Positions 1,799 to 23,132 of a stretch of 64,000 nucleotides of DNA are shown in pieces (positions within the stretch are counted from its first letter, which is position 1; every line of letters starts with the position of its first letter). The position numbers were made by a program, and so were the translations under genes. Below the pieces are notes generated by a model. That model saw only the letters and a program-made list of their open reading frames with translations. It searched no databases and was not told the DNA's origin. This DNA is from Chloroflexota bacterium (GTDB taxonomy: Bacteria; Chloroflexota; Anaerolineae; Anaerolineales; Villigracilaceae): positions 62,001-126,000 of the forward strand of contig JAIOAU010000003.1 in NCBI GenBank assembly GCA_019873655.1, written 5' to 3'.

Positions 1799-1826
1799 AC
1801 TTTCGACTTCTGACCTTCGACTACTA
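1798..1826. repeat. Heptamer array (GACTTTC type) abutting a stop codon
   Basis: Four consecutive 7-base units read GACTTTC, GACTTCT, GACCTTC, GACTACT on the + strand. On the minus strand the array begins at the TAG stop codon of the PLP enzyme gene. The same unit type (GTCAAAA/GTCGAAG when read in reverse) forms the arms of the insertion inside copA at 24481-24529. Here only one arm is seen. Confidence 0.7.
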
Positions 1827-3290
1827 CATCAACCCCACTTCCGCGTTGAACTCCTCAATCAGCGCGTCGATTTCCTCTGCCTGCTGTTGGACGCCTTTCC
1901 AGTACTCGCGGTCGTTCCACATGCGGACGATTTCCTCGTAGGTCTTGCCTTGCTGTTCGACCCAGGTGTAGTACTTCAAGTTGTGGACGCGGCGGCGGTC
2001 GGCGTAGCGCAGTTCGAGCAGATTGTCGGTGGACTGCTGAAGAATCCAGCGGGCGTAGTCGGCGGCGGCGTCGCGCTCGGTGTACTCGCCGTACTCGGCG
2101 CGCATTTCCGCCAGGCGGCTCTGGTACAGTTCCATCGAGTCGGTCAGCACAGTAATCATGATGTCATCTTCGCCCATCTCGTAGTATTTGGCCGCCTTGA
2201 TGGCGCTCAACACGTTGGAAATGCCCGAAAAGCCGAGCAAATCGAGATTGGCGACCAATGCCTCCGGGACGCCCATCTTCACCAGATATTCCCGTCCTGC
2301 CTTTTCGTTAAACAAGCGTGCCAGACTCACCACCGCGTTGTCGTCAATCGCCACGACCATGTCGGTGTTCTTGACGTTGTGAATCCACGGCACGTGCTTG
2401 TCGCCGATGCCCTCGATGCGATGCGCGCCGAAGCCGTTCTCCAGCAGGGTCGGGCATTGCAGAGCCTCGCTGGCGACGATGACGCTGCCGGGGAAGACCT
2501 GCTTCATGTAGTCGCCGCTGGCAATCGTCCCGGCCGAACCGGTGGCGGAGGCCATGCCCCGATAGACGCCGCGCGGACCGGCGGCCTGCCGAACCACTTC
2601 CTCCATCGCGTGGCCGGTCACCTCGTAGTGCCACAGGTAGTTGCCGAATTCCTCGAACTGGTTGAAAATCATCAGGTCTTCGCCCGACTTGCGCAGTTCC
2701 CAGCACTTGTCGAAGATTTCCTTGACGTTCGATTCCGAACCGGGTGTCTTGATGACCTCGCCCGCAATCTTCGAGAGCCAGTCGAAGCGCTCCTTGCTCA
2801 TCCCCTCCGGCAGGATGGCGATGGACGTGCAGGCCAGCAGGGCCGAATCGTAGGCCCCGCCGCGGCAGAAATTGCCGGTCGAGGGCCAGACGGCCTTCTG
2901 CGTGGTCGGGTCGAACTGACCCGTGACCAGCCGCGGGACGAGACAGCCAAATGCCGCCCCGACCTTGTGCGCGCCGGTCGGGAACCACTTGCCGACCAGA
3001 ACAATAATCCGCGCCGGGACGCCGGTCAGCGCCGGGGGCAGTTCCATCCAATTCACGCCGCCGAAGCCGCCGCCTTTGGCCTTCGGCTCGTTCTTCCAGG
3101 TGATGCGGAACAGGTTGCGCGGATGGACGTCCCACAGCCCGATGCCCTTCAGTTCTTCCTTGATTTTGGCCGGAATCCTGGACGGGTCTTTCATCTGGGC
3201 GAAGGTGGGGATGATAATGTTACGCTCGCGGGCGCGTTGAATGGCGCGGGCGCGGCGCTCTTTATGGATGGTGAGGTCTATTCTGGACAT
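1824..3290 (-). CDS. Fold-type-II PLP-dependent enzyme (lyase/synthase-like), specific reaction unknown
   Basis: A 488-residue PLP enzyme of the tryptophan synthase beta/cysteine synthase fold. Lys109 in KWFPTGAHKVGAAFG is the expected PLP Schiff-base lysine, and STGNFCRGG (137-145) is the usual Ser/Thr-Gly-Asn phosphate-cradle region. It is longer than cysteine synthase (about 310 residues) and carries a C-terminal helical region. The start at 3290 is chosen because AGGAG lies seven bases before it; an upstream ATG would add 21 residues encoded by the operator region. It stands alone, with its own promoter and a palindrome identical to the one in front of the purine operon. Inference: it acts on an amino acid intermediate of purine breakdown. 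It lacks the Lys-site motifs I expect in diaminopropionate ammonia-lyase. Confidence 0.8.
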   Translation of the reverse strand: MSRIDLTIHKERRARAIQRARERNIIIPTFAQMKDPSRIPAKIKEELKGIGLWDVHPRNLFRITWKNEPKAKGGGFGGVNWMELPPALTGVPARIIVLVGKWFPTGAHKVGAAFGCLVPRLVTGQFDPTTQKAVWPSTGNFCRGGAYDSALLACTSIAILPEGMSKERFDWLSKIAGEVIKTPGSESNVKEIFDKCWELRKSGEDLMIFNQFEEFGNYLWHYEVTGHAMEEVVRQAAGPRGVYRGMASATGSAGTIASGDYMKQVFPGSVIVASEALQCPTLLENGFGAHRIEGIGDKHVPWIHNVKNTDMVVAIDDNAVVSLARLFNEKAGREYLVKMGVPEALVANLDLLGFSGISNVLSAIKAAKYYEMGEDDIMITVLTDSMELYQSRLAEMRAEYGEYTERDAAADYARWILQQSTDNLLELRYADRRRVHNLKYYTWVEQQGKTYEEIVRMWNDREYWKGVQQQAEEIDALIEEFNAEVGLM

Positions 3291-3341: not shown

Positions 3342-3354
3342 GTTGTCTGACAAC
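3342..3354. promoter_or_regulatory. 13-bp palindromic operator, copy 1
   Basis: GTTGTCTGACAAC is a perfect palindrome around a central T. It begins three bases downstream of the -10 box of the minus-strand PLP enzyme gene, where a bound repressor would block initiation. An identical 13-mer lies at the same kind of position before the 8-oxoguanine deaminase gene. The form (GTC...GAC core) fits operators of HutC-type GntR regulators, one of which is encoded at 19084-19803. Confidence 0.75.
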
Positions 3355-3357
3355 TTA

Positions 3358-3363
3358 ATTATA
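3358..3363 (-). promoter_or_regulatory. -10 box of the PLP enzyme gene
   Basis: TATAAT on the minus strand, 68 bases from the chosen start codon. The best -35 candidate is ATGACG/TGACGA at a spacing of 17-18, matching TTGACA only partly. The operator at 3342-3354 lies across the expected transcription start. Confidence 0.6.
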
Positions 3364-7659: not shown

Positions 7660-8786
7660 GGTTCGTCCTTTGGGGAAACTTTTTTGCGCGCCGGCTTGGG
7701 CGGCGGAGAACGATGCTCATCCTCGGGAAAAGGCGGCAAGCCCAGAATGCGCCGGCGCAGGTAGTCGCCGACGACGCCCAGCGAGGCCAGCACCGGCACG
7801 ATAATGAACGCGCCCAAAATGCCGATGAAAATCACCGCCGCCACGATGGCGATGAAAACCAAGCCTTCGTGCATGTGAACGCTGCGCCCCAGGATGTGCG
7901 GCCGCAGCCAGATATTTTTGATGTTGATCAAGATCACATAAATGCCGAACACCAGCAGCGCGATCCAGATGTTATCCCAGGGAATCCAGCGCGAGCCTTC
8001 CAGCGCGGCGACAATCGCCGCCAGGAGCGCCGCGGCAAACGGCCCGACATCGGGAATGATGCTGAAAATGCCGCCCAAAATGCCCAACACCAGCGCCCCC
8101 GGCAGGCCGATGATGGACCAGATGACCGTGAAAGTCACGCCGACGATCGCCATCAGGGTCAGTTGGCCGCGCAGGTAAGCCATCCACACATCTTTGATTT
8201 TCAAATACAGGCGGCGGACATCATGGCGATAGTCCTCCGGCGCCAGGCGAATCAGCCACTCGCGCAGCCGCGCCCAGTCCGTGATGAAATAGTAGGCCGC
8301 TACAACCACCACTAAAAACCACAAAGCGCCGCGGGATGTGCTTTCCAACAAGCGTAAAGCATCTTCGGGAAGGGGCGTCAAAAGAGTGGAAAGAGACTGT
8401 TTAATATCCGGGATCAGGCGCTCCAGATGGATCGAAAAATTTCCCAGACGAATTGGGTCGAGCAAGAAATATTCCGCCCGGTTAAGGACCTCCAGCAGGT
8501 CATTGGCTACCGTCTGCATTTCGCCGGAAAGGATCGGCAATAAGGTGCCGGGGATGGCAAAAAACAGCAACAGACTGACCACGAAAACAAGGTGAGAGGC
8601 CAGTTTGGGTTTCATGCGCAAGCGCTTTTGCAGAAACTCCACTACCGGATAGAGCAGATAAGCAATCACCCCCGCCAGGACGAGCGGGCCAAACAGGTCG
8701 CGCACGTACCAGGCAGCCAGCGCCAGGCTCACAAGGATGACCGCCAGGGCAAAATAACGCGCCGCCGGACTCCAATTCTTGCTCAT
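7656..8786 (-). CDS. AI-2E family (UPF0118/PerM-like) membrane protein
   Basis: A 376-residue polytopic membrane protein of the AI-2E exporter family, with paired hydrophobic helices at the N-terminus, a soluble stretch at about 85-160 and a helical C-terminal core containing [20 protein letters not shown], a typical family segment. Members include permeases, Na+/H+ antiporters and proposed signal exporters, so the substrate cannot be named. The tail is cytosolic, charged and Pro/Lys-rich. The gene overlaps threonine synthase upstream and the glycosyltransferase downstream by four bases each. Confidence 0.88.
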
Positions 8787-10051
8787 AGAATCTTTTTGAG
8801 CGCCTCGAGAGTCGGCTCGATGACCGGCGCGGGCTGGACCGCCTGCATGGCGGCGCGCACGTCCTTCAGACCCGAACCGGTGTTGAGCACCACAATCGGG
8901 TCTTCGGGCGCGACCAGACCCTGCGCCGCGGCCCGCGCCAGGCCGGCATACGCCGCCGCTCCGGCCGGTTCGGCAAAGACGCCCAGCGGGCCGAGCGCGG
9001 CGATAGCCCGCAGAATCTCGTCATCGCTCACCTGAATATATGTCCCCCCGGTCTCGCGGGCGGCGCGCACCGCCCGGACGCCGTCGCGCGGCAAATCGAC
9101 CGAAATGCTGTCGGCAATGGTCTGCGCCGAGACGGGGACGATCTTCTCGCCGCCGGCGTGGAAAGCCGTCGCAATCGCCGCCGACCCCTCGGCCTGGACG
9201 CCGATCAGACGCGGCAGGCGGTGGATCCACCCCAAGGCGAGCAAATCCTTAAATCCCTTGTGGAGGCCGGAGATGATGTTGCCATCGCCGACCGAAACGA
9301 AGATCGTCAGCGGACGGTGGTCGTCGAGCGGGCTGCCGGGTTTGTGCCAGTCGTGATGCTCCTGCCGCCACCACTCCCAAATCTCGAAGGCGGCTGTCTT
9401 CTTTCCCTCCGCTGTGAAGGGATTGTAGCCAGTGTTGCGGCAATACCAGCCGAAAGCCTCCGCGGCCCGAACCGTCAGATCGAAGGCGTCGTCGTAGGTG
9501 CCGTCCACCAGAATGACCCTGGCCCCATAGACGAGCAACTGGGCCACCTTGGCCGGGGGGGCCGTCTTGGGCGCGAAGATGATTGCCTGCTGGCCGACCG
9601 CCGCCGCCATCCCCGCCAGCGCCGCGCCGGCGTTGCCGGTCGAGGCGGTGACGACCACCTCGGCGCGTATCTCGCGCGCCCGGGCCACCACCACCGCGCT
9701 GGCGCGGTCCTTGAACGAGGCGGTCGGATTGCGGCTCTCATCCTTCAGCCAGACGTGTTTCAAGCCGAGCGGCGCGGCCAAGCGATCCAGGCGATAGACG
9801 GGAGTGCCGCCCGCGGCGCGCAGCGGCGTCCCCTCGCCGCCGGGGTCTCCAACGGGCAGAAGCGGCAGATAGCGCCACAAAGAATTCTCATCGCGCGAGA
9901 GCAGGTCTTCGGGCTGGTACTTCTGACGCAAAGCGGCATAGTCGAGCGCCACGTCCAAATTGCCGCCGTCCGTCGGGCAGAGATAATCCACCTGACCGGG
10001 AAGATATTCCCGGCCGCAAAGGGAACAACGATAACCGAGGAATTTGTTCAT
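8783..10051 (-). CDS. thrC: Threonine synthase
   Basis: This 422-residue PLP enzyme converts O-phosphohomoserine to threonine. The N-terminus has a zinc-ribbon-like segment, YRCSLCGREY with a further Cys near residue 25, seen in the archaeal/Chloroflexi-type long ThrC. Lys114 in NPTASFKDRA is the Schiff-base lysine, and VTASTGNAGAALAGMAA is the phosphate-binding loop. GTGSGLKD near the C-terminus is also typical. The gene appears to lead a minus-strand cluster that continues with the AI-2E protein, glycosyltransferase, PatB-like enzyme and lipoprotein. Confidence 0.92.
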   Translation of the reverse strand: MNKFLGYRCSLCGREYLPGQVDYLCPTDGGNLDVALDYAALRQKYQPEDLLSRDENSLWRYLPLLPVGDPGGEGTPLRAAGGTPVYRLDRLAAPLGLKHVWLKDESRNPTASFKDRASAVVVARAREIRAEVVVTASTGNAGAALAGMAAAVGQQAIIFAPKTAPPAKVAQLLVYGARVILVDGTYDDAFDLTVRAAEAFGWYCRNTGYNPFTAEGKKTAAFEIWEWWRQEHHDWHKPGSPLDDHRPLTIFVSVGDGNIISGLHKGFKDLLALGWIHRLPRLIGVQAEGSAAIATAFHAGGEKIVPVSAQTIADSISVDLPRDGVRAVRAARETGGTYIQVSDDEILRAIAALGPLGVFAEPAGAAAYAGLARAAAQGLVAPEDPIVVLNTGSGLKDVRAAMQAVQPAPVIEPTLEALKKIL

Positions 10052-10120: not shown

Positions 10121-11119
10121 TTACTCCGACTCGAATGGCACGCCCAACGCTGCGGGCGGCGAGGCCCGCAAGGCTCTCAGGAATCGAACCGCCAGCCGGC
10201 GCAATCCGGTCGGCAGCAGGGCCAGGGTGCGCGCCACCCATTCGGCGTCGCCGATGTTGACCAGGAGGAGGGTCAGAATCATGAGCGGGAAGGGCGCCAC
10301 CTGCAGCACCTGCGAGGGAATGTTCGGCAGGCGCGCCTGCAGCACCAGTCCCAGCCACTGGAGAAAAGCGAAGAGGTAGGAGCCAAAGGCGGCCCGCAGC
10401 GGATTCCAGCCGCCGAAAATCGTGATGGAAAGGGCGATCCAGCCGATGCCGTCCAGGCCGGAGATCGTCCCCGCCCAGCCAGCCTTGACGCTGAGCGAAT
10501 AGGCCGGTCCCGCCAGGCCGATGATCGCGCCGCCGATGACCGTGTACAGGTAACGCATCCGATTGACGTTCGCGCCGCGCACGAAAGCCGCCGCCGGGCG
10601 TTCCCCAATCCCTTGAAGCATGAGGCCGGGACGAGTCTTGAAAATCCACGCCCAGGCCAGGAAAATCATCACAAAACTGAGATACGTGATGACGGTATGA
10701 TTGAAAAACAGCGTCCCCACATACGGGAGTTGCGCCAGTCCCGGAATCGGTACGGCCAGCAAGCGCGGGCCCGGAATGTTCATGTAGGGATTGCCCAAAA
10801 AATAGGCCAGATCGCGGCACAACAGCGCCAGGACGAAACCGACCGCCACCTGGGATTGCTTGAGCGTGATGCTGCTGAAAGCCACGATCAGCGCCACCAG
10901 CGCGCCAATCGCCATGCCGGTCAGAAAGCCCAGCCAGAGACTGTTGGTGCGCAAGGCGACCGCAAAACTCCCCATCGCCGTCAGCAAAATCGTGCCGTTC
11001 ATCGAAAGATTGATCACACCCGCCCGCTCGGAGATGGTCTCGCCTATCACAGCAAACAACACGGGCGCGGCGGCCGCCAGGACCGAAGCCAGACCAAGAA
11101 GCAGTTGTTCGTTCGTCAT
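10121..11119 (-). CDS. ABC transporter permease, nucleoside importer (second subunit)
   Basis: A 332-residue inner-membrane permease of the BmpA-associated nucleoside importer group. It has about eight to ten hydrophobic segments and an early ERAGVINLSMNGTILL motif, the characteristic (E/D)RxGVxNLxxEG region of this permease family. It is last in the operon: its ATG overlaps the stop of the first permease by four bases, and a strong hairpin follows. With the other permease it would form the translocation channel energised by the double ATPase. Confidence 0.9.
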   Translation of the reverse strand: MTNEQLLLGLASVLAAAAPVLFAVIGETISERAGVINLSMNGTILLTAMGSFAVALRTNSLWLGFLTGMAIGALVALIVAFSSITLKQSQVAVGFVLALLCRDLAYFLGNPYMNIPGPRLLAVPIPGLAQLPYVGTLFFNHTVITYLSFVMIFLAWAWIFKTRPGLMLQGIGERPAAAFVRGANVNRMRYLYTVIGGAIIGLAGPAYSLSVKAGWAGTISGLDGIGWIALSITIFGGWNPLRAAFGSYLFAFLQWLGLVLQARLPNIPSQVLQVAPFPLMILTLLLVNIGDAEWVARTLALLPTGLRRLAVRFLRALRASPPAALGVPFESE

Positions 11120-12222
11120 GGTCGTTCCTCCACCGGCGCAGATTCATCCGAAAGGCGCAGACGTTTCATAATCTGCTGGCGAGCGCCCTCGACCAGCAGG
11201 ACGGACAAGACCAGCAATCCCTGCAACACCCCCGCCAGCGATGAATCCAGCCGCAAGACAATCGGCAACTGGATGCTCCCGATGTTGAGCGCCGCAAAGA
11301 AAAGCGCCACCGGCACAGCCCAGACTGCCTGGTAGTTGACCAACATAGCCACCAGCAACCCCAAGAAACCGTAACCGCTCGAAATCGAGGGAATCAAGCG
11401 GTGATAGACGGCCGTCACCTGCAACGCGCCAGCCAGACCCGCCAGGAGGCCGCACAACAGAAAAGAGGCCATCATGTGCTGCCAGGTCGGAACCCCCAGC
11501 AGATAGGCGGCGCGCATATTCTTGCCGACCGCCTTGAGGCGCAAGCCAAAACGCGTTCCTCGCAGCATCAGATAGACCACCACCACCGCCAACAGCGCCA
11601 GTCCCAGCGCCCAGGGACTGAGGCGCAAACCGCTCAGGGTGGGCAGCCAGAGCGTCTCGGGGAAAGGCAAGGTGCCAGACATCGAGCCGGTCCCCGGTCG
11701 CTTCCAGGGGCCAAAGATCAACCACAGGGTCAAGGCGGTGGCGACGAAATTCAACCCCAGGCCGCCGAAAATTTCATTCACGCCGCCAAAGGTCTTCAGC
11801 GCCCCGGCCAGGGCCGCCCACAGCGCGCCGCCCAGCATCCCTGCCAGCATGGCCAGCAAGATAATCAACCAGGGCGGAAGCGCGCTTTCTTGTAAGAGAC
11901 GCAGGACCCAGGTCGTGAAAATGGCGCCGAGCGTGACCTGTCCTTCCACGCCGATGTTCCACAAACCCGCCGAGAAGGTGATCAAGACGCCAACCGTCGT
12001 CAGCAACAGCGGCGCCCAAACCACCAGCACATTCGCAATGCTGTTGGTGTTGCCGAAGGCACCTTTCAGAATGTTGAGATAGGCCTGCCCCGGCGGAGCG
12101 CCGACGGCCAGCAGGATGAGTGTGGTAAAGGACAAAGCCAGCAGGAACGCCGCCGCCTGAAACAGAGGGGAAATCCACTTGATCGTTTTGGCAGTCAACT
12201 TAGCGCCTTTCGAACCTTCCAT
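11116..12222 (-). CDS. ABC transporter permease, nucleoside importer (first subunit)
   Basis: A 368-residue permease paired with the following one. Hydrophobic segments run through the whole protein; FSAGLWNIGVEGQVTLGA is the family motif corresponding to the GxxNIGxEGQ segment of nucleoside permeases. TRFGLRLKAVGKNMRAAYLLG is the cytoplasmic coupling loop that touches the ATPase. Its ATG shares one base with the stop of the ATPase gene (TGATG), showing tight coupling of subunit synthesis. Confidence 0.92.
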   Translation of the reverse strand: MEGSKGAKLTAKTIKWISPLFQAAAFLLALSFTTLILLAVGAPPGQAYLNILKGAFGNTNSIANVLVVWAPLLLTTVGVLITFSAGLWNIGVEGQVTLGAIFTTWVLRLLQESALPPWLIILLAMLAGMLGGALWAALAGALKTFGGVNEIFGGLGLNFVATALTLWLIFGPWKRPGTGSMSGTLPFPETLWLPTLSGLRLSPWALGLALLAVVVVYLMLRGTRFGLRLKAVGKNMRAAYLLGVPTWQHMMASFLLCGLLAGLAGALQVTAVYHRLIPSISSGYGFLGLLVAMLVNYQAVWAVPVALFFAALNIGSIQLPIVLRLDSSLAGVLQGLLVLSVLLVEGARQQIMKRLRLSDESAPVEERP

Positions 12223-13706
12223 CAGCCCTGCCCTCCTTTCTCCGGCCAGCCCTTGCCGCCGATCAATTCGCCCAGCCGGTCGGTCGTCAGGTCGGCGGCC
12301 TCCAGCGGCGGCGTCACCCGCCCGCTGAAGAATACCAGCACCCGGTCGCTGTACTGCAAAATTTCTTCCAGGTCAGAAGAGATGAACAAAACCGCCATCC
12401 CCTGCGCGCAGCGCTCTTTCAACTTCGACCAGATGTAAATCGTCGATTCGATGTCCAAGCCGCGGGTCGGATGCTCGAGCAGGAGCAGATCGAGCGGGAC
12501 CCGCAACAGCGCCAGCAAAGCCCGCTGCTGATTGCCGCCCGAAAGCGACTCGACCGGCGTTTCAGGAGCGCCGCGAATGTTGAAATCCAGGATGCGTTGA
12601 CGCGCCAGCGAGCGGCCGGCATTCCAATCCACGAAGAAACTTCTCCGTTCCTCGGCCAGCACAAAATGTTCGGTTAAATTCAACCCTGGAACCAACCCCT
12701 CTTCCAAACGCGAGGCCGGCAAAAAGGCCACGCCGTGCCGCTTGTGAGCCAGATAGGAACGGCCGGTCAAATCCTGATCGCCCACCCAAACGCGCCCTCC
12801 CGTTGGACGCACCAAACCACAGATGGCGCGCATAAACAGGCCCTGACCGCTGCCTTCCATCCCGGCCAGCCCAATGACCTCGCCCTTGTGCACCGTCAGC
12901 GAAACATCGCGGACTTTGAGCCGGTCGTCTTCGACCGAGAGGGACTCCAGTCTGAGAGCGACCGGCCCGGGCTTGGCCGGCTGGCGTTCTCCCATGGCAA
13001 CGCTCTTGCCGAACATCATCTCGACCAACTGGGCGGTCTTGTAAGGCGGGCGGACATCGCCTACCAAATATCCCTGGCGCAGGACGGCAATTTTATGGCA
13101 CAGGCCTTCCACGTCCTCCAACTTGTGGGAAACGAACAACACCGTCCGACCCTGTTCGGCCAGCAAACGAAGGGCGGCGAACAATTTTTCCTTCTGGGCG
13201 GCGCTGATTCCCGTGGTCGGCTCATCGAAAATGAGAACCCGCGCCCCCAACCAGAGCAGACGCAGGATTTCCAACTGCTGGCGCTCGCCGACCGTCAGGG
13301 TGTCCACATAAGCGTCGGGGTCGAGGGAAAAACCGAACTGGTCAGCCAAAGCCCGAAAGTCGCGCTTGGCCGCCGCCCGGCCGGGAAGCAAACCGCCCTT
13401 GCGTCCGAGGATAAAATTGTCGATGACGCGCATGGGCGGAAAATCGAGCGGATCCTGATGCAGCATGCCGATCCCGTGGCGGATGGCGTCAGAAGGGGAA
13501 TGGATGACCACCGGGCGGCCGTCGAGGCGAATCTCGCCGCGGTCCGCCCGAATGAAACCGGATAAGACCTTCATCAAGGTGCTCTTGCCAGCCCCGTTTT
13601 CGCCCAGAATGCCCTGGATGGTCCCTGCCGGCACGCTCAAGGTGATTCCCACATTGGCATGTACGCGGCCGAACGTTTTGTGGATATCGTACAGCGCAAC
13701 GTCCAT
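12222..13706 (-). CDS. ABC transporter ATPase with two ATP-binding domains, nucleoside importer
   Basis: A 494-residue double ATPase. Domain one has Walker A GENGAGKST (35-43), a TVGERQQ signature and Walker B VLIFDEPT. Domain two has a degenerate P-loop (GMEGSGQG) and an intact LSGGNQQR signature, the usual asymmetry of sugar and nucleoside importers of the RbsA/YufO type. It lies between the lipoprotein receptor gene and two permease genes and overlaps the first permease by one base. It supplies the energy for the importer. Confidence 0.95.
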   Translation of the reverse strand: MDVALYDIHKTFGRVHANVGITLSVPAGTIQGILGENGAGKSTLMKVLSGFIRADRGEIRLDGRPVVIHSPSDAIRHGIGMLHQDPLDFPPMRVIDNFILGRKGGLLPGRAAAKRDFRALADQFGFSLDPDAYVDTLTVGERQQLEILRLLWLGARVLIFDEPTTGISAAQKEKLFAALRLLAEQGRTVLFVSHKLEDVEGLCHKIAVLRQGYLVGDVRPPYKTAQLVEMMFGKSVAMGERQPAKPGPVALRLESLSVEDDRLKVRDVSLTVHKGEVIGLAGMEGSGQGLFMRAICGLVRPTGGRVWVGDQDLTGRSYLAHKRHGVAFLPASRLEEGLVPGLNLTEHFVLAEERRSFFVDWNAGRSLARQRILDFNIRGAPETPVESLSGGNQQRALLALLRVPLDLLLLEHPTRGLDIESTIYIWSKLKERCAQGMAVLFISSDLEEILQYSDRVLVFFSGRVTPPLEAADLTTDRLGELIGGKGWPEKGGQG

Positions 13707-13773: not shown

Positions 13774-15060
13774 CTATTCCCCAGAAACGCTCTGGCCCTG
13801 CATGCCCTCGAGCAATTGCGGCAGGTACCAGATTTGCTGATCCGTGGCGATCTCGCCATCGGCCAGATAAGGTGTACCATCCTGCAGGTTGAGCGGGCCG
13901 GTCCACAGGTTCAGACCGCCGGCCAGTTCGCCGATGAACTGATTCAGGAGGGCAGAGGCATCGGGGCTCAGGGCCGGGCCGGGAACGAAGCCGACCGCGC
14001 TGGTGTCGAGATTGTTGATGTCAGCCCAATCCGGACCGTTCCACTGGAACGAGGAAGTCCAGGTGCCATTGATGGCCGATTGGATGGTGGCCAGGTAAGC
14101 CGGGCCCCAGTTGAAGTACGGCACACCCAGACAGACCGCATCCGCGCCTTCGCAAGCGCCAATGAAGTCGTAGGGGATCGCCCAAACCTGTTCGCCAGCG
14201 GCGCGCAGGCGGGAGGCTTCGGTCAGGGCCTCGGTGGTGTCAATGCCCGAGATGACCACGTCGTAGCCGGTGTTGAAGAAGTCGTCGGCGACCTGGGTCG
14301 GGTCGGCGGTGACGCCGGGGATGTTGAACCAGAAGCCAATCCAGGTGACCTTAAATTGCAGGGCGGCCGGGTCATTGCCCAGGTACTCGCTCCAGCAATA
14401 GCGGGCGCCCAGGTAGGCCGAGGCAGCCAGGCGGCGGGTCTCGTCGTTGATCAGCGGGCCGAGATAGCCAATCTGACCGGTCTGGGTGGTCAGAGCGGCA
14501 GCGCAGCCAGCGATCATCTTGCCGTATTCCATCCGGCCCATGATGTTGACCATGTTGTCCATCGGGATGTAGGCGTTGCCCTCTGCCCAGACCTGGTCGC
14601 CGGAGGCCATGATGACAAAGATGTCGGGATGCGCCTGGGCAAACTCGGTAGAACTATCTTTCATGTCATCCGAGTTGAAGATGATGAGGCGCGCGCCCTG
14701 AGCGACCAGTTCTTCGGCCAACTGAGCGGGGGTGGTGCCGGGGCGGTCAGCCGGGTTGACGCGGTCCAGATAAATCATGCGAGCGCCGGGCAGATTCTCT
14801 TCGACGTAGAGCCCGGCCTCGTAGTGGGCCTGACTCCAGCCGCGGTCGTTGTAGGGGCCAACCAGCAGCATGCCGAAGACGAACTCTTCGGGCTGCGCTT
14901 CGGTGGCGGCGGATTCGGTCGCGGCGGCCTCGGTCGCGGCGGCTTCGGTGGCCGCCGTCCCGCTGCCAGTCGTCGTCTCGGTGGCGGCCGGCTTGCAGGC
15001 GGTCAACAGCATGGCAAAGGCCATCAACAACAGAGCAAGGCGAAAGATATTCTTGCGCAT
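13774..15060 (-). CDS. BmpA family nucleoside-binding lipoprotein
   Basis: A 428-residue substrate-binding lipoprotein of the BMP/PnrA family. The signal peptide ends in lipobox LLTAC, followed by an ATEAAATEA spacer that lifts the domain off the membrane. FVFGMLLVGPYNDRGWSQAHYEAG is the N-terminal BMP motif, with the Asp and Trp that commonly contact the nucleoside. The start at 15060 is preferred over one 18 codons upstream because TAGGAGGAG lies just before it and the signal peptide begins there. It is the first gene of the transport half of the operon. Purine nucleosides are the likely ligand, from family and context. Confidence 0.9.
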   Translation of the reverse strand: MRKNIFRLALLLMAFAMLLTACKPAATETTTGSGTAATEAAATEAAATESAATEAQPEEFVFGMLLVGPYNDRGWSQAHYEAGLYVEENLPGARMIYLDRVNPADRPGTTPAQLAEELVAQGARLIIFNSDDMKDSSTEFAQAHPDIFVIMASGDQVWAEGNAYIPMDNMVNIMGRMEYGKMIAGCAAALTTQTGQIGYLGPLINDETRRLAASAYLGARYCWSEYLGNDPAALQFKVTWIGFWFNIPGVTADPTQVADDFFNTGYDVVISGIDTTEALTEASRLRAAGEQVWAIPYDFIGACEGADAVCLGVPYFNWGPAYLATIQSAINGTWTSSFQWNGPDWADINNLDTSAVGFVPGPALSPDASALLNQFIGELAGGLNLWTGPLNLQDGTPYLADGEIATDQQIWYLPQLLEGMQGQSVSGE

Positions 15061-15225: not shown

Positions 15226-16191
15226 TCACGGCACAATCCACGTGCCGGTTTCGCCCTTGAGGGCGCGGCCGATGTTCTCCGGGTTGGTGATGAGCGCCTT
15301 GCCGTTGGGATTGGCCTCCAGGAACCAGATGATGGCCTGGATTTTGGGGGCCATCGAGCCTTTGGCGAAATGCACGCCTTCGGCCAGGTACTGCTTGGCC
15401 TCGGCGAGGGTCATCTTATCGATCCACTTCTGGTCGGGTTTGCCGAAGTTGAGGGCTACTTTTTCGACCGCGGTGGAGATGACGAACAGATCGGCGTTGA
15501 TTTCGCGCGCCAGCAGGCTGGAGGCGTAGTCCTTATCGATGACCGCCGCCGTGCCAACATACTCGCCGTTGCCCTTGTCAATGACCGGGATGCCGCCGCC
15601 GCCCACCGTGATGACGATGATGCCGGCGTTGAGCAGGGTCTTGACCGTATCAAGTTCGACTACCTCCTTGGGCAGGGGCGAGGCGACGACGCGCCGCCAG
15701 CCGCGGCCAGCGTCTTCGACCACATCCCAACCCATCTCGTTCTTGCGGCGCATCGCCTCGGCCTCATCCATGAAGCCGCCGATGGGCTTGCTGGGATTCT
15801 TGAAGGCCGGGTCGTCTTTGTCCACCAGAACCTGGGTGATCACGGTGGCGACGTTCTTTTTGATGCCGCGCCGGTAGAGTTCGTTCTGCAGATTCTGCTG
15901 GAGGGCGTAGCCGATAGCGCCCTGGCTGTCGGCCCCGCACACGTCCAGCGGGACCTCGTGCATGCCCTCGACCTTGGCCGCGATTTCCGAGCGGCGCAGG
16001 ATGAAGCCGACCTGCGGCCCGTTGCCGTGACCGATGGCCACATCCCAGCCGGCCTCAATCATGTCGGCGATGTGGTAGCAGGTCTCTTTCGCGGCCTGAT
16101 ATTGGTCTTCGACCGTCTTGTGTTGTTCGTCCTTGATGAGTGAGTTGCCGCCGATGGCGACGACAGCGAGTTTTTTCGTTTTATCTGTCAT
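15226..16191 (-). CDS. arcC: Carbamate kinase
   Basis: A 321-residue amino-acid-kinase-fold enzyme that uses carbamoyl phosphate and ADP to make ATP, CO2 and ammonia. The N-terminus VVAIGGNSLI is the carbamate kinase form of the phosphate-binding loop, GHGNGPQVG contacts carbamoyl phosphate, and SMAPKIQA near the C-terminus is family-typical. Full length. Its ATG overlaps the stop of the four-helix-bundle gene by four bases, and the ribosome site AGGAGA lies inside that gene. Two carbamoyltransferase genes lie upstream, so the enzyme probably harvests the carbamoyl phosphate they release. Confidence 0.95.
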   Translation of the reverse strand: MTDKTKKLAVVAIGGNSLIKDEQHKTVEDQYQAAKETCYHIADMIEAGWDVAIGHGNGPQVGFILRRSEIAAKVEGMHEVPLDVCGADSQGAIGYALQQNLQNELYRRGIKKNVATVITQVLVDKDDPAFKNPSKPIGGFMDEAEAMRRKNEMGWDVVEDAGRGWRRVVASPLPKEVVELDTVKTLLNAGIIVITVGGGGIPVIDKGNGEYVGTAAVIDKDYASSLLAREINADLFVISTAVEKVALNFGKPDQKWIDKMTLAEAKQYLAEGVHFAKGSMAPKIQAIIWFLEANPNGKALITNPENIGRALKGETGTWIVP

Positions 16192-16782: not shown

Positions 16783-17772
16783 TCATCCCATCGTCAGCGC
16801 CATGACCGCCTTTTGAGCGTGCAGGCGGTTTTCGGCCTCATCATAGACGACCGAGTTGGGGCCGTCAATCACGCCGTCGGTGACTTCGATGTTGCGGTCG
16901 GCGGGCAGGGGGTGCATGTAGATGGCATCCGGCTTGGCGAGGGCCATCTTGCGCTCGTCGGTAATCCAGTGCGAGTACTTCTTGATGATTTTCGCGCCCT
17001 CTTCCGGGTCCGGCGTATGGACCATCGCGCCCCACGACTTGGCGTAGATGATGTCGGCGTCCTTGAAGGCTTTCTCCATCCCGTCCGGATCGGAGATGAC
17101 CTCGAAGCCGGCGCCGTACTTTTTGGCCTCGGCCTCGGCCTGGTCCATGATTTCCGGCATCAGGCGGAATTCCGGCGGGTGGACGAGGGTCACATCCAGC
17201 CCGAAGCGCGGCATCTGCAGGATGAGCGACTGCGGCACCGACATCGGCTTCTGGTACGAGGCGGCGTAGGCCCACGAGACGACCATCTTCTTGCGGCGCA
17301 GGTCGCGGCCCTTCTTCTCGACGATGGTCATCAGGTCAGCCAGAATCTGGAAGGGGTGGTAGATGTCGCACTGCATGTTCAGCACGGGGACGCGGCTATA
17401 CTTGGCCACCTCGCTGATGTACTTGTTGCCCACGCCCCAATCCACGTGGCGGATGGCAATGCCGTCGTAGTAGCGGCCAAAGATTTCACCGATTTCCTTG
17501 GGGGTATCGCCGTGGGCGATTTGGGTGGTGCGACTCTCGATGAACGCGCCGTGTCCGCCCAGTTGGGCGATGCCAGCCTCGAAGGAGCCGCGCGTGCGCG
17601 TGGACGAGAAGAAGAACAGCATCGCCAGCACCTTGTCGCGCAGATAGGCGTGCGGTTCATTCAGGGCGCGTTTGCGCTTCAGGTCGAAAGCCACATCGAG
17701 GACGGTTTCGACTTCTTCTTTCGTAAAATCCAGGTCGCCGATCAGGTCTCGGCCGTGAAGGAAGGTTTGCAT
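16783..17772 (-). CDS. Carbamoyltransferase, ornithine/YgeW-like (probable catabolic enzyme)
   Basis: A 329-residue aspartate/ornithine carbamoyltransferase family enzyme. FFFSSTRTRGSFE is the carbamoyl-phosphate-binding SxRT loop, and DIYHPFQILADLMT is the HPxQ motif. The amino-acid-site motif reads YMHPLPADRNIEV, where ornithine enzymes have HCLP and YgeW-type enzymes have HALPAD. The end, VVYDEAENRLHAQKAVMALTMG, is ornithine-carbamoyltransferase-like. Context with carbamate kinase and purine deaminases favours a catabolic direction, releasing carbamoyl phosphate from a ureido compound, as described for the purine pathway carbamoyltransferase YgeW; this substrate is an inference. Confidence 0.85.
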   Translation of the reverse strand: MQTFLHGRDLIGDLDFTKEEVETVLDVAFDLKRKRALNEPHAYLRDKVLAMLFFFSSTRTRGSFEAGIAQLGGHGAFIESRTTQIAHGDTPKEIGEIFGRYYDGIAIRHVDWGVGNKYISEVAKYSRVPVLNMQCDIYHPFQILADLMTIVEKKGRDLRRKKMVVSWAYAASYQKPMSVPQSLILQMPRFGLDVTLVHPPEFRLMPEIMDQAEAEAKKYGAGFEVISDPDGMEKAFKDADIIYAKSWGAMVHTPDPEEGAKIIKKYSHWITDERKMALAKPDAIYMHPLPADRNIEVTDGVIDGPNSVVYDEAENRLHAQKAVMALTMG

Positions 17773-18042: not shown

Positions 18043-18996
18043 CTACTCCATCGCTCCCAGCACCAGCGCCAACAGCGCCATGCGCATCACGACGCCGTTG
18101 AAGGCCTCCTGCCAGTAGCGGCTCCAGCGGGTGATGTCCACATCGGTCGGGACCTCGTCCATGCGCGGCAGGGAGTGGAGCAGGATGGCGTCGGACTTGG
18201 CTTTGGTGGCGAGCAGTTCGCGGGTAATCTTGTAGTTGGCGGGGGTCAGGCCCACCTCGCCCTTGCGCTCGTCGCGGGACTTGGTGTAGTCCGGCTGGAC
18301 GACCGGCTCGACCAGGATGACGTCCGCGTCGGCGATCGCCTGCTCGACATGCTCGGCCTCGCGGAAATTGAGGCTGTACTGGCGCAACTCGGCCTTGAAT
18401 TCCTCGGTCAGCGACATGTCGGGCGGGGAGACGAAGGTGATGGGGCAGTCGAACTGCGTCAGGGCGTAGGCCAGCGAGTGCATCGTGCGCATGCGCATAT
18501 CGCCCACCGCCAGCCACTTCAAGCCGTCAATCGTGCCTTTCTCTTTCAGCACCGTGTACAGGTCGGTCAGAATCTGGGTCGGGTGTTCGCCCCAGCCGTC
18601 GCCGCCGTTGATGACGGGAATGGATGCCCACTTGGCCGCCTCGTGCGGCGCGCCCTGCTGGAAGTGACGCATGACGATGACATCGCCGTAGAACTCCAGC
18701 ATCTTGACCGTGTCCTTGATGGACTCCTGGTAGAAGTCCCCGGCGCGGGTCATCTTGGCGTCGGCGAAACCGGTCACGTGACCGCCCAGGCGGTGCATGG
18801 CCGCCTCGTGCGCCAGACGGGTGCGCGTGGACGGCTGATAGAAGGCCGTCACCAGGGTCTTCTCCTTGAGCAGGTCGCTGTTGCGACGCTGCACGGCAAT
18901 CGGCTCCAGTTCAGCCGCTACATCGAAGATATGGAAAAACTCGTTCCGTTCGAAATCCTTGAGGGACAGAATGTCCCGGCCAGCAAAACTACGCAT
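18043..18996 (-). CDS. Carbamoyltransferase, aspartate-carbamoyltransferase-like paralogue
   Basis: A 317-residue enzyme with the aspartate carbamoyltransferase plan: FYQPSTRTRLAHEAAMHRLGG binds carbamoyl phosphate, GEHPTQILTDLYT is the HPTQ motif and LLHSLPRMDEVPTDVD corresponds to the HPLPRxDE motif. Differences are His-Ser-Leu-Pro in place of His-Pro-Leu-Pro, and an 80s loop (MTRAGDFYQESIKDT) lacking the usual SxxKGES form, so the second substrate may not be aspartate. It follows the GntR gene and has a CGGAGGT ribosome site. It is not near other pyrimidine synthesis genes. A role in releasing carbamoyl phosphate from a purine-derived ureido acid is the favoured inference. Confidence 0.82.
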   Translation of the reverse strand: MRSFAGRDILSLKDFERNEFFHIFDVAAELEPIAVQRRNSDLLKEKTLVTAFYQPSTRTRLAHEAAMHRLGGHVTGFADAKMTRAGDFYQESIKDTVKMLEFYGDVIVMRHFQQGAPHEAAKWASIPVINGGDGWGEHPTQILTDLYTVLKEKGTIDGLKWLAVGDMRMRTMHSLAYALTQFDCPITFVSPPDMSLTEEFKAELRQYSLNFREAEHVEQAIADADVILVEPVVQPDYTKSRDERKGEVGLTPANYKITRELLATKAKSDAILLHSLPRMDEVPTDVDITRWSRYWQEAFNGVVMRMALLALVLGAME

Positions 18997-19083: not shown

Positions 19084-19803
19084 CTATCCCTGCCCGACTC
19101 TCCTCACCACATGGAATCGGAAATAACCGGGCCGGAAATAACTTTGCGAAGCATCCATTACGCGGCCGTTCTCGGCATACAAGCGCGCCACAAAGTGAAG
19201 CAAGACATCGTCGCGCTGGACCTGCAACGCACGCGCCACCTCCGGGGTCGCCCCGATGGCGCGAATCTCCGTACGTGAATGAGAGAGTTTGGGCGTTCCG
19301 CGGCTCAACAACAGGTCGAGAACCGAACCCGAAAAGCCGTTCCCCAGGTCATCCTCGCTGAGCACGTCGGCGGGCAGGATGTCAATCAGATAGGCGATGG
19401 GGGTATTTTCGGTGTAGATGACGCGCTCGACGCGGGTCAAGAGCGTTCCGGGAGCAACTCCCAACGCCTCTGCCTCAGCAGGGTTTGCCTGCGCCTGCTC
19501 GACCTTGAGTTCGCCCATCCGCACCTTCAGGCCAATCCGCTGGGCCAGCGTCTCGATGCTTTCCAGGACCTCCAGCCCGCTCTCGATGACCGGAATCTTG
19601 CCCACCACGAAGGTGCCGACTCCCTGTCGGCGGCGAATCAGACCCCGCCCCTCGATGGCGCGCATGGCCTCGCGCAGCGTCGCCCGCGACACGCCCAATT
19701 GCTTCGCCAGATAGGGTTCGGACGGCAACTGGCTTTCGGCCGGCATCGACTCAATCATCTGAATGAGTTCGGCCTGCAAACGACGAAACGGAAACTGTGT
19801 CAT
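19084..19803 (-). CDS. GntR-family transcriptional regulator with UTRA domain (HutC type)
   Basis: A 239-residue regulator. The winged helix is near residues 25-65 (SEPYLAKQLGVSRATLREAMRAIEGRGLIRRRQGVGTFV). The remaining 150 residues form an effector-binding UTRA domain, with YTENTPIAYLIDILPADVL and a final YFRPGYFRFHVVRR strand pair. It lies 9 bases after the adenine deaminase gene, inside the operon it probably controls. HutC-type regulators bind short palindromes with GTC/GAC-like arms, matching the two GTTGTCTGACAAC sites at 3342 and 23084. A purine or ureido intermediate is the likely inducer, by inference. Confidence 0.9.
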   Translation of the reverse strand: MTQFPFRRLQAELIQMIESMPAESQLPSEPYLAKQLGVSRATLREAMRAIEGRGLIRRRQGVGTFVVGKIPVIESGLEVLESIETLAQRIGLKVRMGELKVEQAQANPAEAEALGVAPGTLLTRVERVIYTENTPIAYLIDILPADVLSEDDLGNGFSGSVLDLLLSRGTPKLSHSRTEIRAIGATPEVARALQVQRDDVLLHFVARLYAENGRVMDASQSYFRPGYFRFHVVRRVGQG

Positions 19804-19812
19804 ATCCTCCTC

Positions 19813-21609
19813 CTATTTTGCCGGCCCTTCGACGACCGGCACAAATTTGAAATGAATCGCGTCCACCAAACCGCGATCCGTGATCCGCAATTCAGGGATG
19901 ACCGGCAGAGCCAGCAGACTCAATTGCATGTTGGGATTGTTCAACTGGCAGCCACAGGCCCGGAATCCCTCCAGAACGCTTTCGGCCCGCATAGCCACGA
20001 TCTCCGCCCGCTCGGTAGCCATCAGACCGGCCAATTGCAAGTCCACCTGACCAATGATCTCCCCCTCTTTGACGACCACCTGTCCGCCGCCCGAGGCGGC
20101 CAGAGCGTTGGCCGCTGCCGCCATGCTGGCCTCGTCGGTGCCAACCACGATGAGATGATGACTATCATGCGCCACCGTGGAGGCGACCGCGCACCTGGCG
20201 CGGAAACCGAACCCGCTCACCAGCCCCACCTGCACCGTCCCGCTGCCGCGATGACGCTCGATCAAGGCCACCTTGGCCAGATCATTCTCCAAACTCGGGC
20301 GAATCTCGCCGCCCTCGACCGTCACGGGCAATTTCAGATGCCGGGTAGTAGCCTGGTTTTCGATGACGCCGATCACATTACACATCACCTGTCCGCCGTC
20401 GGCCGACTCAACCGGCAGACGGAAATCCTCCGCCTTCATCTTCTTTCCGAGATGGACCGAACGCGTCGCCCAGGCCGGATAGCGCACGACGGGCAGTTCG
20501 AGCAGCAACTTGCCCCGGTCCGCAGCAACCACACCGCGGGCAATGACCATCGAGACCTGGAAATTCTTCAAATCGTTGACCAGCAAAATATCCGCCCAGC
20601 GGCCAGGCGCAATCTGACCGATTTCGCGGCTCAGGCCGAAGTGCTCGGCGATATTGAGGGTCGCCATCTGAATAGCCGTCATCGGCGATACGCCCTCGGC
20701 AATGGCGTGACGCACCACCCGATCCATGTGGCCGTGAATGAGCGTCTCCGCATGCGCATCGTCGTTGCAGAGCAGGAAATGGCGCGGGTCCAGACGCATT
20801 TTGGTGATCGCTTTAACTTGGGCGGCCACATCATGCCAGGCCGAACCATAGCGCATCATCACCTTCATCCCCTGGCGGGCGCGGGCAATGGCATCCTCCA
20901 GGCGCGTCCCCTCGTGGTCATCTTCCGGGCCGCCGGCCACGTAGCCATGGAACGCCCGTCCGAGGTCGGGCGAGGCGTAGTGTCCGCCAACCACCTTGCC
21001 CAGGCGGCGGGCGGCGACGATTTCCGCAATCATCTTTCGGTCGCCGGCGGCCACGCCCGGGAAGTTCATCACCTCGCCCAGGCCGATGACGCCCTCCCAG
21101 CCGAGCGCCTCGGCCACCTCCTCCGGCCCGAGGTCCGCGCCGGGCGTCTCGAACCCCGGCGCAGCCGGCACACAGGACGGCACCTGCACCCAGACGTGAA
21201 TCGGCTGGCGGCGCGCCTCGTCCACCATCAAGCGGATGCCTTTCAGCCCAAACACATTGGCAATCTCGTGCGGATCGACGAACAGACCGGTCGTCCCATG
21301 CGGCAGGACGGCGCGCACGAACTCGGTCACGGTCAGCATCCCCGACTCGATGTGTACATGGGCATCCAGCAGGCCAGGGACAAGGTATTTGCCGTTGGCG
21401 TCGAGGACCAGCGTGGTGTTCGAATCGATCGTATGGGAGGCATCCGGCCCCACGTAAGCCACGCGCCCCTCTTTCACGGCTACATCGGTATCAGGGATGA
21501 TCTCCCCCGACTGGACGCACACCCACGTGCCATTCTTGATGACCAAATCGGCGGGTTTGCGCCCCATGGCTACATCAATCAGACTCTTCACGATTGCAGG
21601 CGTCTTCAT
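19813..21609 (-). CDS. ade: Adenine deaminase
   Basis: A 598-residue metal-dependent amidohydrolase that converts adenine to hypoxanthine and ammonia. The N-terminal LVPGLLDAHVHIESGMLT holds the metal-binding His-X-His. HEIANVFG, GLGEVMNFPGV with its conserved Glu, and LCNDDAHAETLIHGHMD are all typical of the bacterial Ade family, and the C-terminal domain VAHDSHHLIVVGTDEASMAAA is diagnostic. The start at 21609 is preferred because GGAGAAA precedes it. The second gene of the operon, it follows 8-oxoguanine deaminase by 58 bases. Confidence 0.95.
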   Translation of the reverse strand: MKTPAIVKSLIDVAMGRKPADLVIKNGTWVCVQSGEIIPDTDVAVKEGRVAYVGPDASHTIDSNTTLVLDANGKYLVPGLLDAHVHIESGMLTVTEFVRAVLPHGTTGLFVDPHEIANVFGLKGIRLMVDEARRQPIHVWVQVPSCVPAAPGFETPGADLGPEEVAEALGWEGVIGLGEVMNFPGVAAGDRKMIAEIVAARRLGKVVGGHYASPDLGRAFHGYVAGGPEDDHEGTRLEDAIARARQGMKVMMRYGSAWHDVAAQVKAITKMRLDPRHFLLCNDDAHAETLIHGHMDRVVRHAIAEGVSPMTAIQMATLNIAEHFGLSREIGQIAPGRWADILLVNDLKNFQVSMVIARGVVAADRGKLLLELPVVRYPAWATRSVHLGKKMKAEDFRLPVESADGGQVMCNVIGVIENQATTRHLKLPVTVEGGEIRPSLENDLAKVALIERHRGSGTVQVGLVSGFGFRARCAVASTVAHDSHHLIVVGTDEASMAAAANALAASGGGQVVVKEGEIIGQVDLQLAGLMATERAEIVAMRAESVLEGFRACGCQLNNPNMQLSLLALPVIPELRITDRGLVDAIHFKFVPVVEGPAK

Positions 21610-21667
21610 CGTTTCTCCTTCTCCCAGCATCGAGACGATACGATAAACGAGACAAATCTCATCCGGT

Positions 21668-23059
21668 TTACTGGCCGCCGCCGACCAGACGCTTCGCCGC
21701 CCGATTGTGATTCTCCGCCAACCGAGTCTCGTCCACCGTGACCAGTTGCCTCTCCCGCACCACGAACTGGCCGCCCACGACGGTGTAGTCCACGCGCCCC
21801 GGCTGACAGAAAACGACCGCCGCGACTGGATCGTGCAGCGCGCCGGCATAATCGAGGCGGTTCAGGTCGATCGCAAAGAAATCGGCGCATTTCCCGACCT
21901 CCAGACTGCCGATGTCGCTGCGCCCCAGCACCGCCGCCCCGCCGCGCGTCGCCAGCCAGAGGGCATCGCGGGCCGTCAGCAGTTTGCGGGAAGGATCGTT
22001 GGAAAGCGAGAAACCGGTGATTCCCTCCCGGACGCGCGCCAACAGCATCGCCTGACGCGCCTCGGCCAGCAGGTGTGAGCCGTCATTGGAAGCCGATCCA
22101 TCCACCCCTAGCCCGACTTTGACGCCCGCCGCCAGATATTCCTTGATCGGCGCAATGCCGGAGGCCAGGCGCATGTTCGAGGTCGGACAGTGCGCCACGC
22201 CGCAGCCATGCCGGGCAAACACGCCAATCTCCTGTTCATTGACCCAGACGGCATGCGCAAACCAGACATCCTCGCCCACCCAGTCCAATTCCTGCATGTA
22301 ACCGACCGGCCGATGGCCGAATTTCTGCAGGCAAAATTGCTCCTCGTCCTCGGTCTCAGCCAGATGGGTGTGGAGGTGAACGCCGTACTGACGCGCCAGC
22401 CGCGCCGATTCGCGCATCAGGTCGCCGGTCACGCTGAAGGGCGAACAGGGGGCGAGGACGATCTGAACGCGCGCGCCCGACTTCGGGTCATGATAGGTTT
22501 CGATCAGACGCTGACTGTCACGCAGGATGGTCTCCTCGCTGTCGACCACCGAATCGGGCGGCAAACCGCCTTTCGACTCGCCCAGACTCATCGAGCCGCG
22601 CGACGCCTGCAAGCGGAGGCCGACTTCCAGCGCGGCGGCAATCTCATCGTCCAGGCGCGAACCGTTCGGGTAGAGATAAAGATGATCCGAGGCGGTGGTG
22701 CAGCCCGAAAGAGCCAGTTCGGCCAGAGCGGTCTGCGTGGAAATATAAATATCTTCCGGCGTGAGCCGCGCCCAGATCGGATAGAGCGTCTTCAACCAGT
22801 TGAACAGGTTGGCATCCTGGGCGGCAGGCACCGCGCGGGTGAGGGTCTGGTAAAAGTGATGGTGGGTGTTCACCAGGCCCGGCAACACAATATGCCCGCG
22901 CAGGTCGAGGACTTCATCGGCGGTTGTGTGGCGCAAATCCGAGACTTGCGCTACTTCTTCAATAAATCCATCACGGACAAAAAGACCACCATCGGGAATC
23001 TCCCGCCGGTGGTCGTCCATCGTTACAAGATAAACATGCTTGATGAGGAGAGTGGACAT
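21668..23059 (-). CDS. 8-oxoguanine deaminase / SsnA-type amidohydrolase
   Basis: A 463-residue amidohydrolase. LPGLVNTHHHFYQTLTRAVP carries the metal-binding HxH; LFNWLKTLYPIWARLTPEDIY and GCTTASDHLYLYPNG are segments I associate with characterised 8-oxoguanine deaminases; LHTHLAET and VGLGVDGSASND complete the active site. The reaction would be 8-oxoguanine to uric acid and ammonia. Related hydrolases act on guanine or s-triazines, so the substrate is likely but not certain. It is the first gene of the operon, with a 38-base leader, no clear ribosome site, and the operator palindrome on the transcription start. Adenine deaminase follows. Confidence 0.88.
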   Translation of the reverse strand: MSTLLIKHVYLVTMDDHRREIPDGGLFVRDGFIEEVAQVSDLRHTTADEVLDLRGHIVLPGLVNTHHHFYQTLTRAVPAAQDANLFNWLKTLYPIWARLTPEDIYISTQTALAELALSGCTTASDHLYLYPNGSRLDDEIAAALEVGLRLQASRGSMSLGESKGGLPPDSVVDSEETILRDSQRLIETYHDPKSGARVQIVLAPCSPFSVTGDLMRESARLARQYGVHLHTHLAETEDEEQFCLQKFGHRPVGYMQELDWVGEDVWFAHAVWVNEQEIGVFARHGCGVAHCPTSNMRLASGIAPIKEYLAAGVKVGLGVDGSASNDGSHLLAEARQAMLLARVREGITGFSLSNDPSRKLLTARDALWLATRGGAAVLGRSDIGSLEVGKCADFFAIDLNRLDYAGALHDPVAAVVFCQPGRVDYTVVGGQFVVRERQLVTVDETRLAENHNRAAKRLVGGGQ

Positions 23060-23083: not shown

Positions 23084-23096
23084 GTTGTCTGACAAC
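23084..23096. promoter_or_regulatory. 13-bp palindromic operator, copy 2
   Basis: GTTGTCTGACAAC, identical over all 13 bases to the site at 3342-3354. It begins seven bases after the -10 box, covering the expected transcription start of the purine operon. Candidate binding site for the HutC-type GntR protein encoded in this operon. Confidence 0.8.
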
Positions 23097-23103
23097 CATC
23101 TAT

Positions 23104-23132
23104 AGTTTAGCAAAAAAAGAAGAGGCTGTCAA
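23104..23132 (-). promoter_or_regulatory. Promoter of the purine operon
   Basis: On the minus strand TTGACA (23127-23132) and TAAACT (23104-23109) are 17 bases apart. The -35 is perfect and the -10 matches four of six positions. Transcription would start near 23097, immediately beside the palindromic operator. Confidence 0.75.

Follow-up and report, generated by a model that had tools for sequence, protein, structure and literature searches.

We analyzed a 64,000-nucleotide stretch of a Chloroflexota genome from the order Anaerolineales, referred to here as the window. On its minus strand, the window carries a purine operon that begins with a gene of the 8-oxoguanine deaminase family and, apart from it, a gene for a PLP-dependent enzyme. 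Each is preceded by a copy of a 13-bp near-palindrome, GTTGTCTGACAAC, which consists of TTGTC-N-GACAA and a flanking G/C pair and leaves its central base unpaired. The site has the form GT-CTG-AC, with 3 nt between GT and AC. The features of both loci are collected in Table 1.

Table 1 Positions of the predicted operators, promoter elements and genes in the window
Feature	Position	Strand	Basis
PLP-dependent enzyme, 488 aa from conserved ATG, cysteine-synthase-like fold with C-terminal extension	1824..3290	-	PF00291, alignment, fold comparison
Predicted operator GTTGTCTGACAAC, PLP gene	3342..3354	.	exact match; conserved upstream in relatives
-10 element TATAAT, directly upstream of the PLP-gene operator	3358..3363	-	read from sequence; conserved at 41/42 sites
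Threonine-synthase paralogue (ThrC-like), often a neighbor of the PLP gene in other genomes	8783..10051	-	NF006050 268.3, below cut-off 303; TIGR00260 180.3, over 167.1
Two ABC transporter permeases	10121..12222 (10121-11119, 11116-12222)	-	PF02653
ABC transporter ATPase	12222..13706	-	PF00005
Bmp-type substrate-binding lipoprotein	13774..15060	-	PF02608
Carbamate kinase	15226..16191	-	TIGR00746 379.9, cut-off 358.25
Carbamoyltransferase, ornithine-type/YgeW-like	16783..17772	-	scores below listed cut-offs
Carbamoyltransferase, aspartate-transcarbamoylase-like	18043..18996	-	TIGR00670 253.4, cut-off 236.95
GntR-family regulator with UTRA domain, candidate binder	19084..19803	-	PF00392, PF07702
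Adenine deaminase	19813..21609	-	TIGR01178 514.5, cut-off 472.5; scanned as longer ORF 19813-21849, start taken as first ATG past the deaminase gene's stop
Amidohydrolase, 8-oxoguanine deaminase family	21668..23059	-	NF006055 679.7 bits, cut-off 532
Predicted operator GTTGTCTGACAAC, purine operon	23084..23096	.	exact match
-10 element TAAACT, TGC before it	23104..23109	-	read from sequence
-35 element TTGACA, 17-bp spacer to -10	23127..23132	-	read from sequence

A scan of the whole genome (3,035,807 bp) returned these two exact copies of GTTGTCTGACAAC and no other, along with one further place that differs by a single mismatch. About 0.05 exact copies would be expected on both strands of 3.04 Mb at the base composition of the window (61% G+C). 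A preliminary description of this DNA had reported the exact pair, had placed each copy just downstream of a minus-strand -10 box, had judged such a pair very unlikely by chance and had proposed the genome scan. Both copies were found where it had put them, with a minus-strand -10 element just 5' of each, and its judgment on chance was borne out by the expected count and by conservation across the family. The 11-bp core of the palindrome, TTGTCTGACAA, occurred seven times in the genome compared with 0.58 expected, and once in the reversed-pattern control. One of these cores lies 59 bp upstream of a pyrimidine-nucleoside phosphorylase gene (C21, L167:7486-8846), an arrangement that recurs in G008 and G050, and may be a real site. 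Others fall within the coding sequences of genes that we take to be coaBC-like and xerC-like, at a presumably trmD-like gene, and between genes that we assume to be isopropylmalate-dehydrogenase-like and YjbQ-like. In G050 and G061, a core stands 35-52 bp before an xerC-like gene.

We analyzed the conservation of the site at the PLP gene in 77 genomes of the order (among them that of the window), using the 73 loci with at least 200 bp of upstream sequence and leaving out the other 4. In 42 of the 73 genomes, the core stood no more than 250 bp ahead of the PLP gene start, where none of 1460 shuffles had it; the gene start is mis-set in some diverged loci of this set (e.g. G037, G078), which is likelier to hide sites than to create them. 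An exact TATAAT preceded the core by 10 or 11 bp at 41 of the 42 sites, compared with 3 of 2100 shuffles, and the site at the PLP gene therefore covers the expected transcription start. Among named loci reaching far beyond the window's family, all with 250 bp of upstream sequence, 17 of 78 carried the core in this interval before the PLP gene, indicating that an operator of its own is the exception for this gene outside the family. In the window, genes for an EcoO109I-type restriction endonuclease and a DNA methylase (150-1734) lie directly downstream of the PLP gene.

The site at the purine operon was likewise conserved. At 57 loci, the sequence ahead of the deaminase gene was 250 bp or longer; an exact core precedes the gene at 51 of them, in 50 cases 9-99 bp from its start, and three of the six remaining loci (G027, G040, G062) have a site with one mismatch. 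At 11 of the 51 loci, another exact core stands 44-53 bp upstream of the first; in G085, the second core is 15 bp away. Since the outer copy touches a TTGACA -35 box in the examples G017, G005 and G012, two operators flank the core promoter there. A search for a second operator in the window's own deaminase promoter found none. The usual gene order in relatives is deaminase, adenine deaminase, GntR, carbamoyltransferases and carbamate kinase, often with transporter genes next and, at some loci, with a ThrC-like gene further downstream. A YgeY-type hydrolase family, one member of which was checked against the YgeY models, follows the GntR gene at 39 of 65 loci. These loci were chosen by their GntR gene, so its presence in them is not a finding. 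In the window, tandem repeats lie between the genes of the operon (8-24 bp at 17886-18044 and 15 bp at 16710-16778), and a 169-aa ORF on the operon strand (16188-16697), between the carbamate kinase and a carbamoyltransferase, looks like a four-helix bundle by eye.

We surveyed the genes at 84 core sites from 11 genomes, taking the three longest ORFs per direction that start within 300 bp and checking the domains of representatives. The survey is a lower bound, with G015, G024, G042 and G065 represented by listed sites. Targets that recurred in at least two genomes were the deaminase operon, the PLP gene, Bmp-type lipoproteins, xanthine-dehydrogenase Mo/Fe-S subunits, carbamate kinase, pyrimidine-nucleoside phosphorylase, glutamate dehydrogenase, SHMT and formate-THF ligase, together with genes that we take, by eye, to be metallo-beta-lactamase-fold-like and xerC-like; FolD and the FAD subunit of a molybdenum hydroxylase were single cases. 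In G015, a core precedes a YgfK-like gene, and SsnA (523 bits, cut-off 455.5) comes next. In G113 (Anaerolineaceae UBA6086), a core lies 27 bp before a gene for diaminopropionate ammonia-lyase (YgeX), with TATTAT directly before the core; this lyase scored 503.7 bits with NF006058, over the cut-off of 276, and 488.5 with TIGR03528, below 532.25. According to the preliminary description, a palindrome found upstream of many unrelated genes would refute its reading. For the most part this was not the case: the recurrent targets were mostly purine, nucleoside, ammonia and one-carbon genes, although some sites were intragenic or stood before genes without an evident purine link. Cores before formate-THF ligase, FolD or SHMT genes (L240, L242, L244, L246, L282 and L311, from G024, G042, G061 and G063) possibly connect purine breakdown to one-carbon metabolism. 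These data support the joining of the PLP gene and the purine operon in one regulon, and the operator can serve as a ready assay that tags genes of no known role as members of the pathway.

Next to the operator, the gene neighborhood points in the same direction. The preliminary description had called the PLP gene distant from the operon, which is true of the window (about 20 kb) but not of many relatives, where the gene lies within or beside the purine cluster, next to the threonine-synthase paralogue. At one locus (L330), a single cluster comprises a site, the deaminase, GntR, two carbamoyltransferases, carbamate kinase, the ThrC-like gene, a glycosyltransferase, a further site and the PLP gene; G085 has the same gene order with the inner site absent. 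Of the named loci, 65 extend 3 kb or more upstream; at 43 of these, a ThrC-like gene lies at most 3.5 kb from the PLP gene, and at 32, a carbamoyltransferase or carbamate kinase lies at most 9.5 kb from it, although not all 65 hold that much sequence. Homologues of the PLP enzyme also occur in Desulfobacterales, Halanaerobiales and other groups. The Desulfobacterales locus L374 encodes ThrC-like, PLP, YgeY (682 bits, cut-off 321.5), a selenium-dependent xanthine dehydrogenase (920 vs. 830), YgeW (697 vs. 453) and SsnA (353, below 444), and the Halanaerobiales locus L391 encodes PLP, ThrC-like, dihydropyrimidinase (436 vs. 393) and YgeY (620 vs. 321.5), with a carbamoyltransferase and a xanthine-dehydrogenase-like subunit both below their cut-offs. 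These gene sets resemble that of the reductive urate pathway, recently worked out in gut bacteria (PMC12507026, PMC12990295).

We utilized AlphaFold2 to model the PLP enzyme (mean pLDDT 79.8, weak at residues 138-140 and 280-305). The best fold matches, with tied top rows, were beta-cyanoalanine and cysteine synthases (3vc3, Z 28.8, rmsd 3.2 Å over 311 residues), leaving the protein uncovered past about residue 420, and we take the fold to be PLP fold type II. K109 in a GAHK motif is invariant in an alignment of 23 sequences and is a candidate for the catalytic lysine. With 84.9 bits, the enzyme scored far under the TIGR01139 cut-off for CysK (350.95), and neither TIGR03528 nor NF006058, the YgeX models, was among its matches at E<=0.001. 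Diaminopropionate ammonia-lyase was absent among the listed fold matches, which excludes nothing. A housekeeping role as cysteine or threonine synthase is not favored for the PLP and ThrC-like enzymes, given the score of the PLP enzyme below the CysK cut-off and the presence of another threonine synthase well over the cut-off in the same genome (580.6 vs. 303).

Given its conserved operator and gene neighborhood, the PLP enzyme most likely takes part in the anaerobic degradation of purines; a role in purine breakdown had been predicted in the preliminary description. Its route is probably the reductive urate route. Cysteine and beta-cyanoalanine synthases act on alanines with a leaving group on the beta carbon, and 2,3-diaminopropionate, which the reductive urate route yields, and albizziin are such compounds. 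Judged from context and chemistry, a diamino or ureido acid (2,3-diaminopropionate or its ureido form) is a plausible substrate, since the route makes 2,3-diaminopropionate and the YgeX gene carries the same core in one relative.

We then compared the genomes with the E. coli pathway of XdhD, YgfK, SsnA, HyuA, YgeW, YgeY and YgeX (PMC12507026). SsnA, YgeY, a YgeW-type carbamoyltransferase, carbamate kinase and xanthine dehydrogenase occur here in the same clusters, regulon or genomes; SsnA was over its cut-off in 44 and YgeY in 34 of 61 genomes. Unlike the pathway described there, none of the 61 had a YgeX over the TIGR03528 cut-off (best 55.6 bits), and a cysteine-synthase-like PLP enzyme with a threonine-synthase paralogue occupies the PLP-enzyme slot. 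The window's genome encodes SsnA (C13:41731-43053, 500.8 bits, cut-off 455.5), with no core site in the 20 kb around the gene, and by profile scores it has neither YgeY nor YgeX over the cut-off. Either the PLP enzyme or the ThrC-like protein beside it may stand in for the missing YgeX. The PLP enzyme is not a strict substitute, because 3 of the 18 PLP-gene-carrying genomes tested also encode a YgeX-type protein, one scoring over the TIGR03528 cut-off and two with full-length matches below it; strict mutual exclusion of the two enzymes was rejected on this count. In G103, YgeX lies with YgeY, carbamate kinase, YgeW, xanthine dehydrogenase and SsnA, and the PLP pair is found in a different stretch, among transporter genes (L389). 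YgeX belongs to the same Pfam family as the PLP enzyme, PF00291, and this family also covers the ThrC-like protein; the PLP enzyme differs in lacking a match to the NCBIfam models of YgeX. In PMC12507026, the neighbors of YgeX are colored by the broad PF00291.

Next, we examined which protein could bind the sites. The preliminary description had named the operon's GntR protein as the natural candidate and had given its coordinates correctly. The protein combines an N-terminal GntR helix-turn-helix (HTH) domain (PF00392, 53.5 bits) with a C-terminal UTRA domain (PF07702, 88.6 bits) and has no FCD match. In 69 genomes with the GntR gene, we counted 303 cores in 242 Mb (54 for the reversed-pattern control), compared with 46 in 107 Mb (control 21) in 32 genomes without it. 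Allowing one mismatch, 43 of 57 genomes that have the GntR gene carried the PLP-gene site, as did 2 of 16 that lack it (Fisher p 8e-6, an optimistic value since the genomes are related and kinship was not corrected for); G030, where a fragment of GntR sits at the end of a contig, was counted as lacking the gene. The two genomes with a site and no detected GntR gene are G052, which is 85% complete and in which no FCD protein was found either, and G007, whose site has one mismatch. The site was missing in 14 of the 57 genomes with the gene; in G085 and G097 the PLP gene sits in the GntR cluster, and in G097 the GntR gene itself has a site roughly 118 bp ahead of it. The 217 ORFs adjoining the 84 examined sites revealed no additional GntR-type HTH. 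The recognition helix, SRATLREAMR, is nearly invariant in 65 orthologues. The HTH is of mixed class, its best PDB match being PdhR and its best NCBIfam match, for the HTH alone, HutC with PdhR second, so we claim no domain swap.

Overall, we assign a probability of roughly 0.7 to the reading that both palindromes are operators of one purine-catabolism regulon including the PLP gene, with the UTRA/GntR protein as repressor and 2,3-diaminopropionate or albizziin as the substrate of the PLP enzyme; operator conservation, promoter architecture, regulon membership and neighborhood are computed results, and binding by this protein, repression, effector and substrate are predictions. The operon's own protein is the likeliest repressor. 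The sites follow the presence of its gene and are kept in some genomes in which no FCD-type GntR protein was found, but two features speak against it, namely their 3-nt spacing of FadR/VanR type and a footprint of a VanR-type regulator on the identical core. The GT and AC of FadR-type sites, a group in which PdhR is listed, are typically separated by 3 nt and those of HutC-type sites mostly by 4 nt (PMC4494728). TTGTCTGACAA has the 3-nt spacing and lacks GT-N4-AC, which is typical of HutC but not universal and counts only if the UTRA protein is the binder. NagR/YvoA and HutC share the GntR HTH and UTRA layout of the window's protein, and HutC is its best NCBIfam HTH match, whereas their operator spacing is 4 nt and the best PDB match of the HTH here is PdhR. 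AlkR, a VanR-type GntR repressor of alkB2 in Pseudomonas aeruginosa, was DNase-footprinted on ATTGTCAGACAAT, whose 11-bp core is identical to the window's and which covers -10 regions (PMC12042122); AlkR differs in having an FCD effector domain and alkane genes as targets, compared with a UTRA regulator and purine genes here. The core also appears in a paper on the LysR-type CrgA at the same gene, and 92 of 101 genomes encode at least one FCD protein. Another regulator, most likely a FadR/VanR (FCD)-type GntR protein, could accordingly occupy the sites and leave other operators to the UTRA protein. We consider this improbable, since no FCD protein was found in 9 of the 101 genomes and some of these retain sites: G008 before the PLP and deaminase genes, G080 with six cores including one at the PLP gene, and G062 with one exact core and a one-mismatch site before the deaminase gene. 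Such genomes leave room for FadR-type proteins with other C-terminal domains or for genes missed in drafts.

A wider nitrogen or one-carbon regulon, with the PLP and ThrC-like proteins caught in it as ordinary enzymes of cysteine, serine or threonine metabolism, would account for the cores that some relatives carry before SHMT, formate-THF ligase, FolD and glutamate-dehydrogenase genes, and for cysteine and beta-cyanoalanine synthases being the best fold matches of the PLP model (Z about 28). It appears unlikely in view of the low CysK score, the separate threonine synthase and neighbors that include carbamoyltransferases, YgeY, SsnA and xanthine dehydrogenase. That the two 13-mers are unrelated, arising by chance or from a mobile repeat, is hardly credible: the intragenic cores in coaBC-like and xerC-like genes would agree with it, but the expected number of exact copies is far below one and the promoter positions are fixed across the family. 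Chance was ruled out by conservation at the PLP gene, at the deaminase gene and of the TATAAT spacing.

Under the regulon reading, a dimeric GntR-family repressor, most likely the UTRA/GntR protein, would bind TTGTC-N-GACAA over the start-point region just 3' of the -10 box and block transcription; some relatives have a second operator copy beside the -35 box. As the third gene of the purine operon, the GntR gene would be autoregulated, and the repressor would leave the DNA once its UTRA domain binds a purine-derived signal. The PLP gene would be a purine-pathway gene that in this lineage lies apart from the cluster under its own operator. Its product would most likely strip the beta-amino or beta-ureido group from 2,3-diaminopropionate or albizziin, with pyruvate and ammonia as products, either replacing YgeX or working alongside it.

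More tentatively, a UTRA-type GntR repressor on a FadR/VanR-type 3-nt operator might run an anaerobic purine regulon in Chloroflexota, with the cysteine-synthase-like PLP system, usually accompanied by the threonine-synthase paralogue, degrading the diaminopropionate/albizziin backbone as a counterpart of YgeX from a non-homologous family. None of the papers listed in our literature search deals with this regulon. For a large group known mostly from MAGs, these findings predict both the regulator and the operator of a purine pathway. They also assign a pathway to a conserved PLP enzyme of previously no known role and offer, as a case open to testing, a GntR protein with an operator spacing that departs from its effector-domain class.

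Elsewhere in the window, a 300-bp tandem repeat (29577-30316) lies inside a predicted 529-aa lipoprotein-like ORF. The SsnA gene of the window's genome (L394, C13) is located near the coenzyme F420 gene cofE, and in G015 (L235) SsnA and the YgfK-like gene lie beside genes that are presumably cofC/cofD-like. These neighbors fit the F420 link suggested for Chloroflexota in PMC12507026, whereas the YgfK-like gene of G015 goes against the statement there that Chloroflexota lack YgfK.
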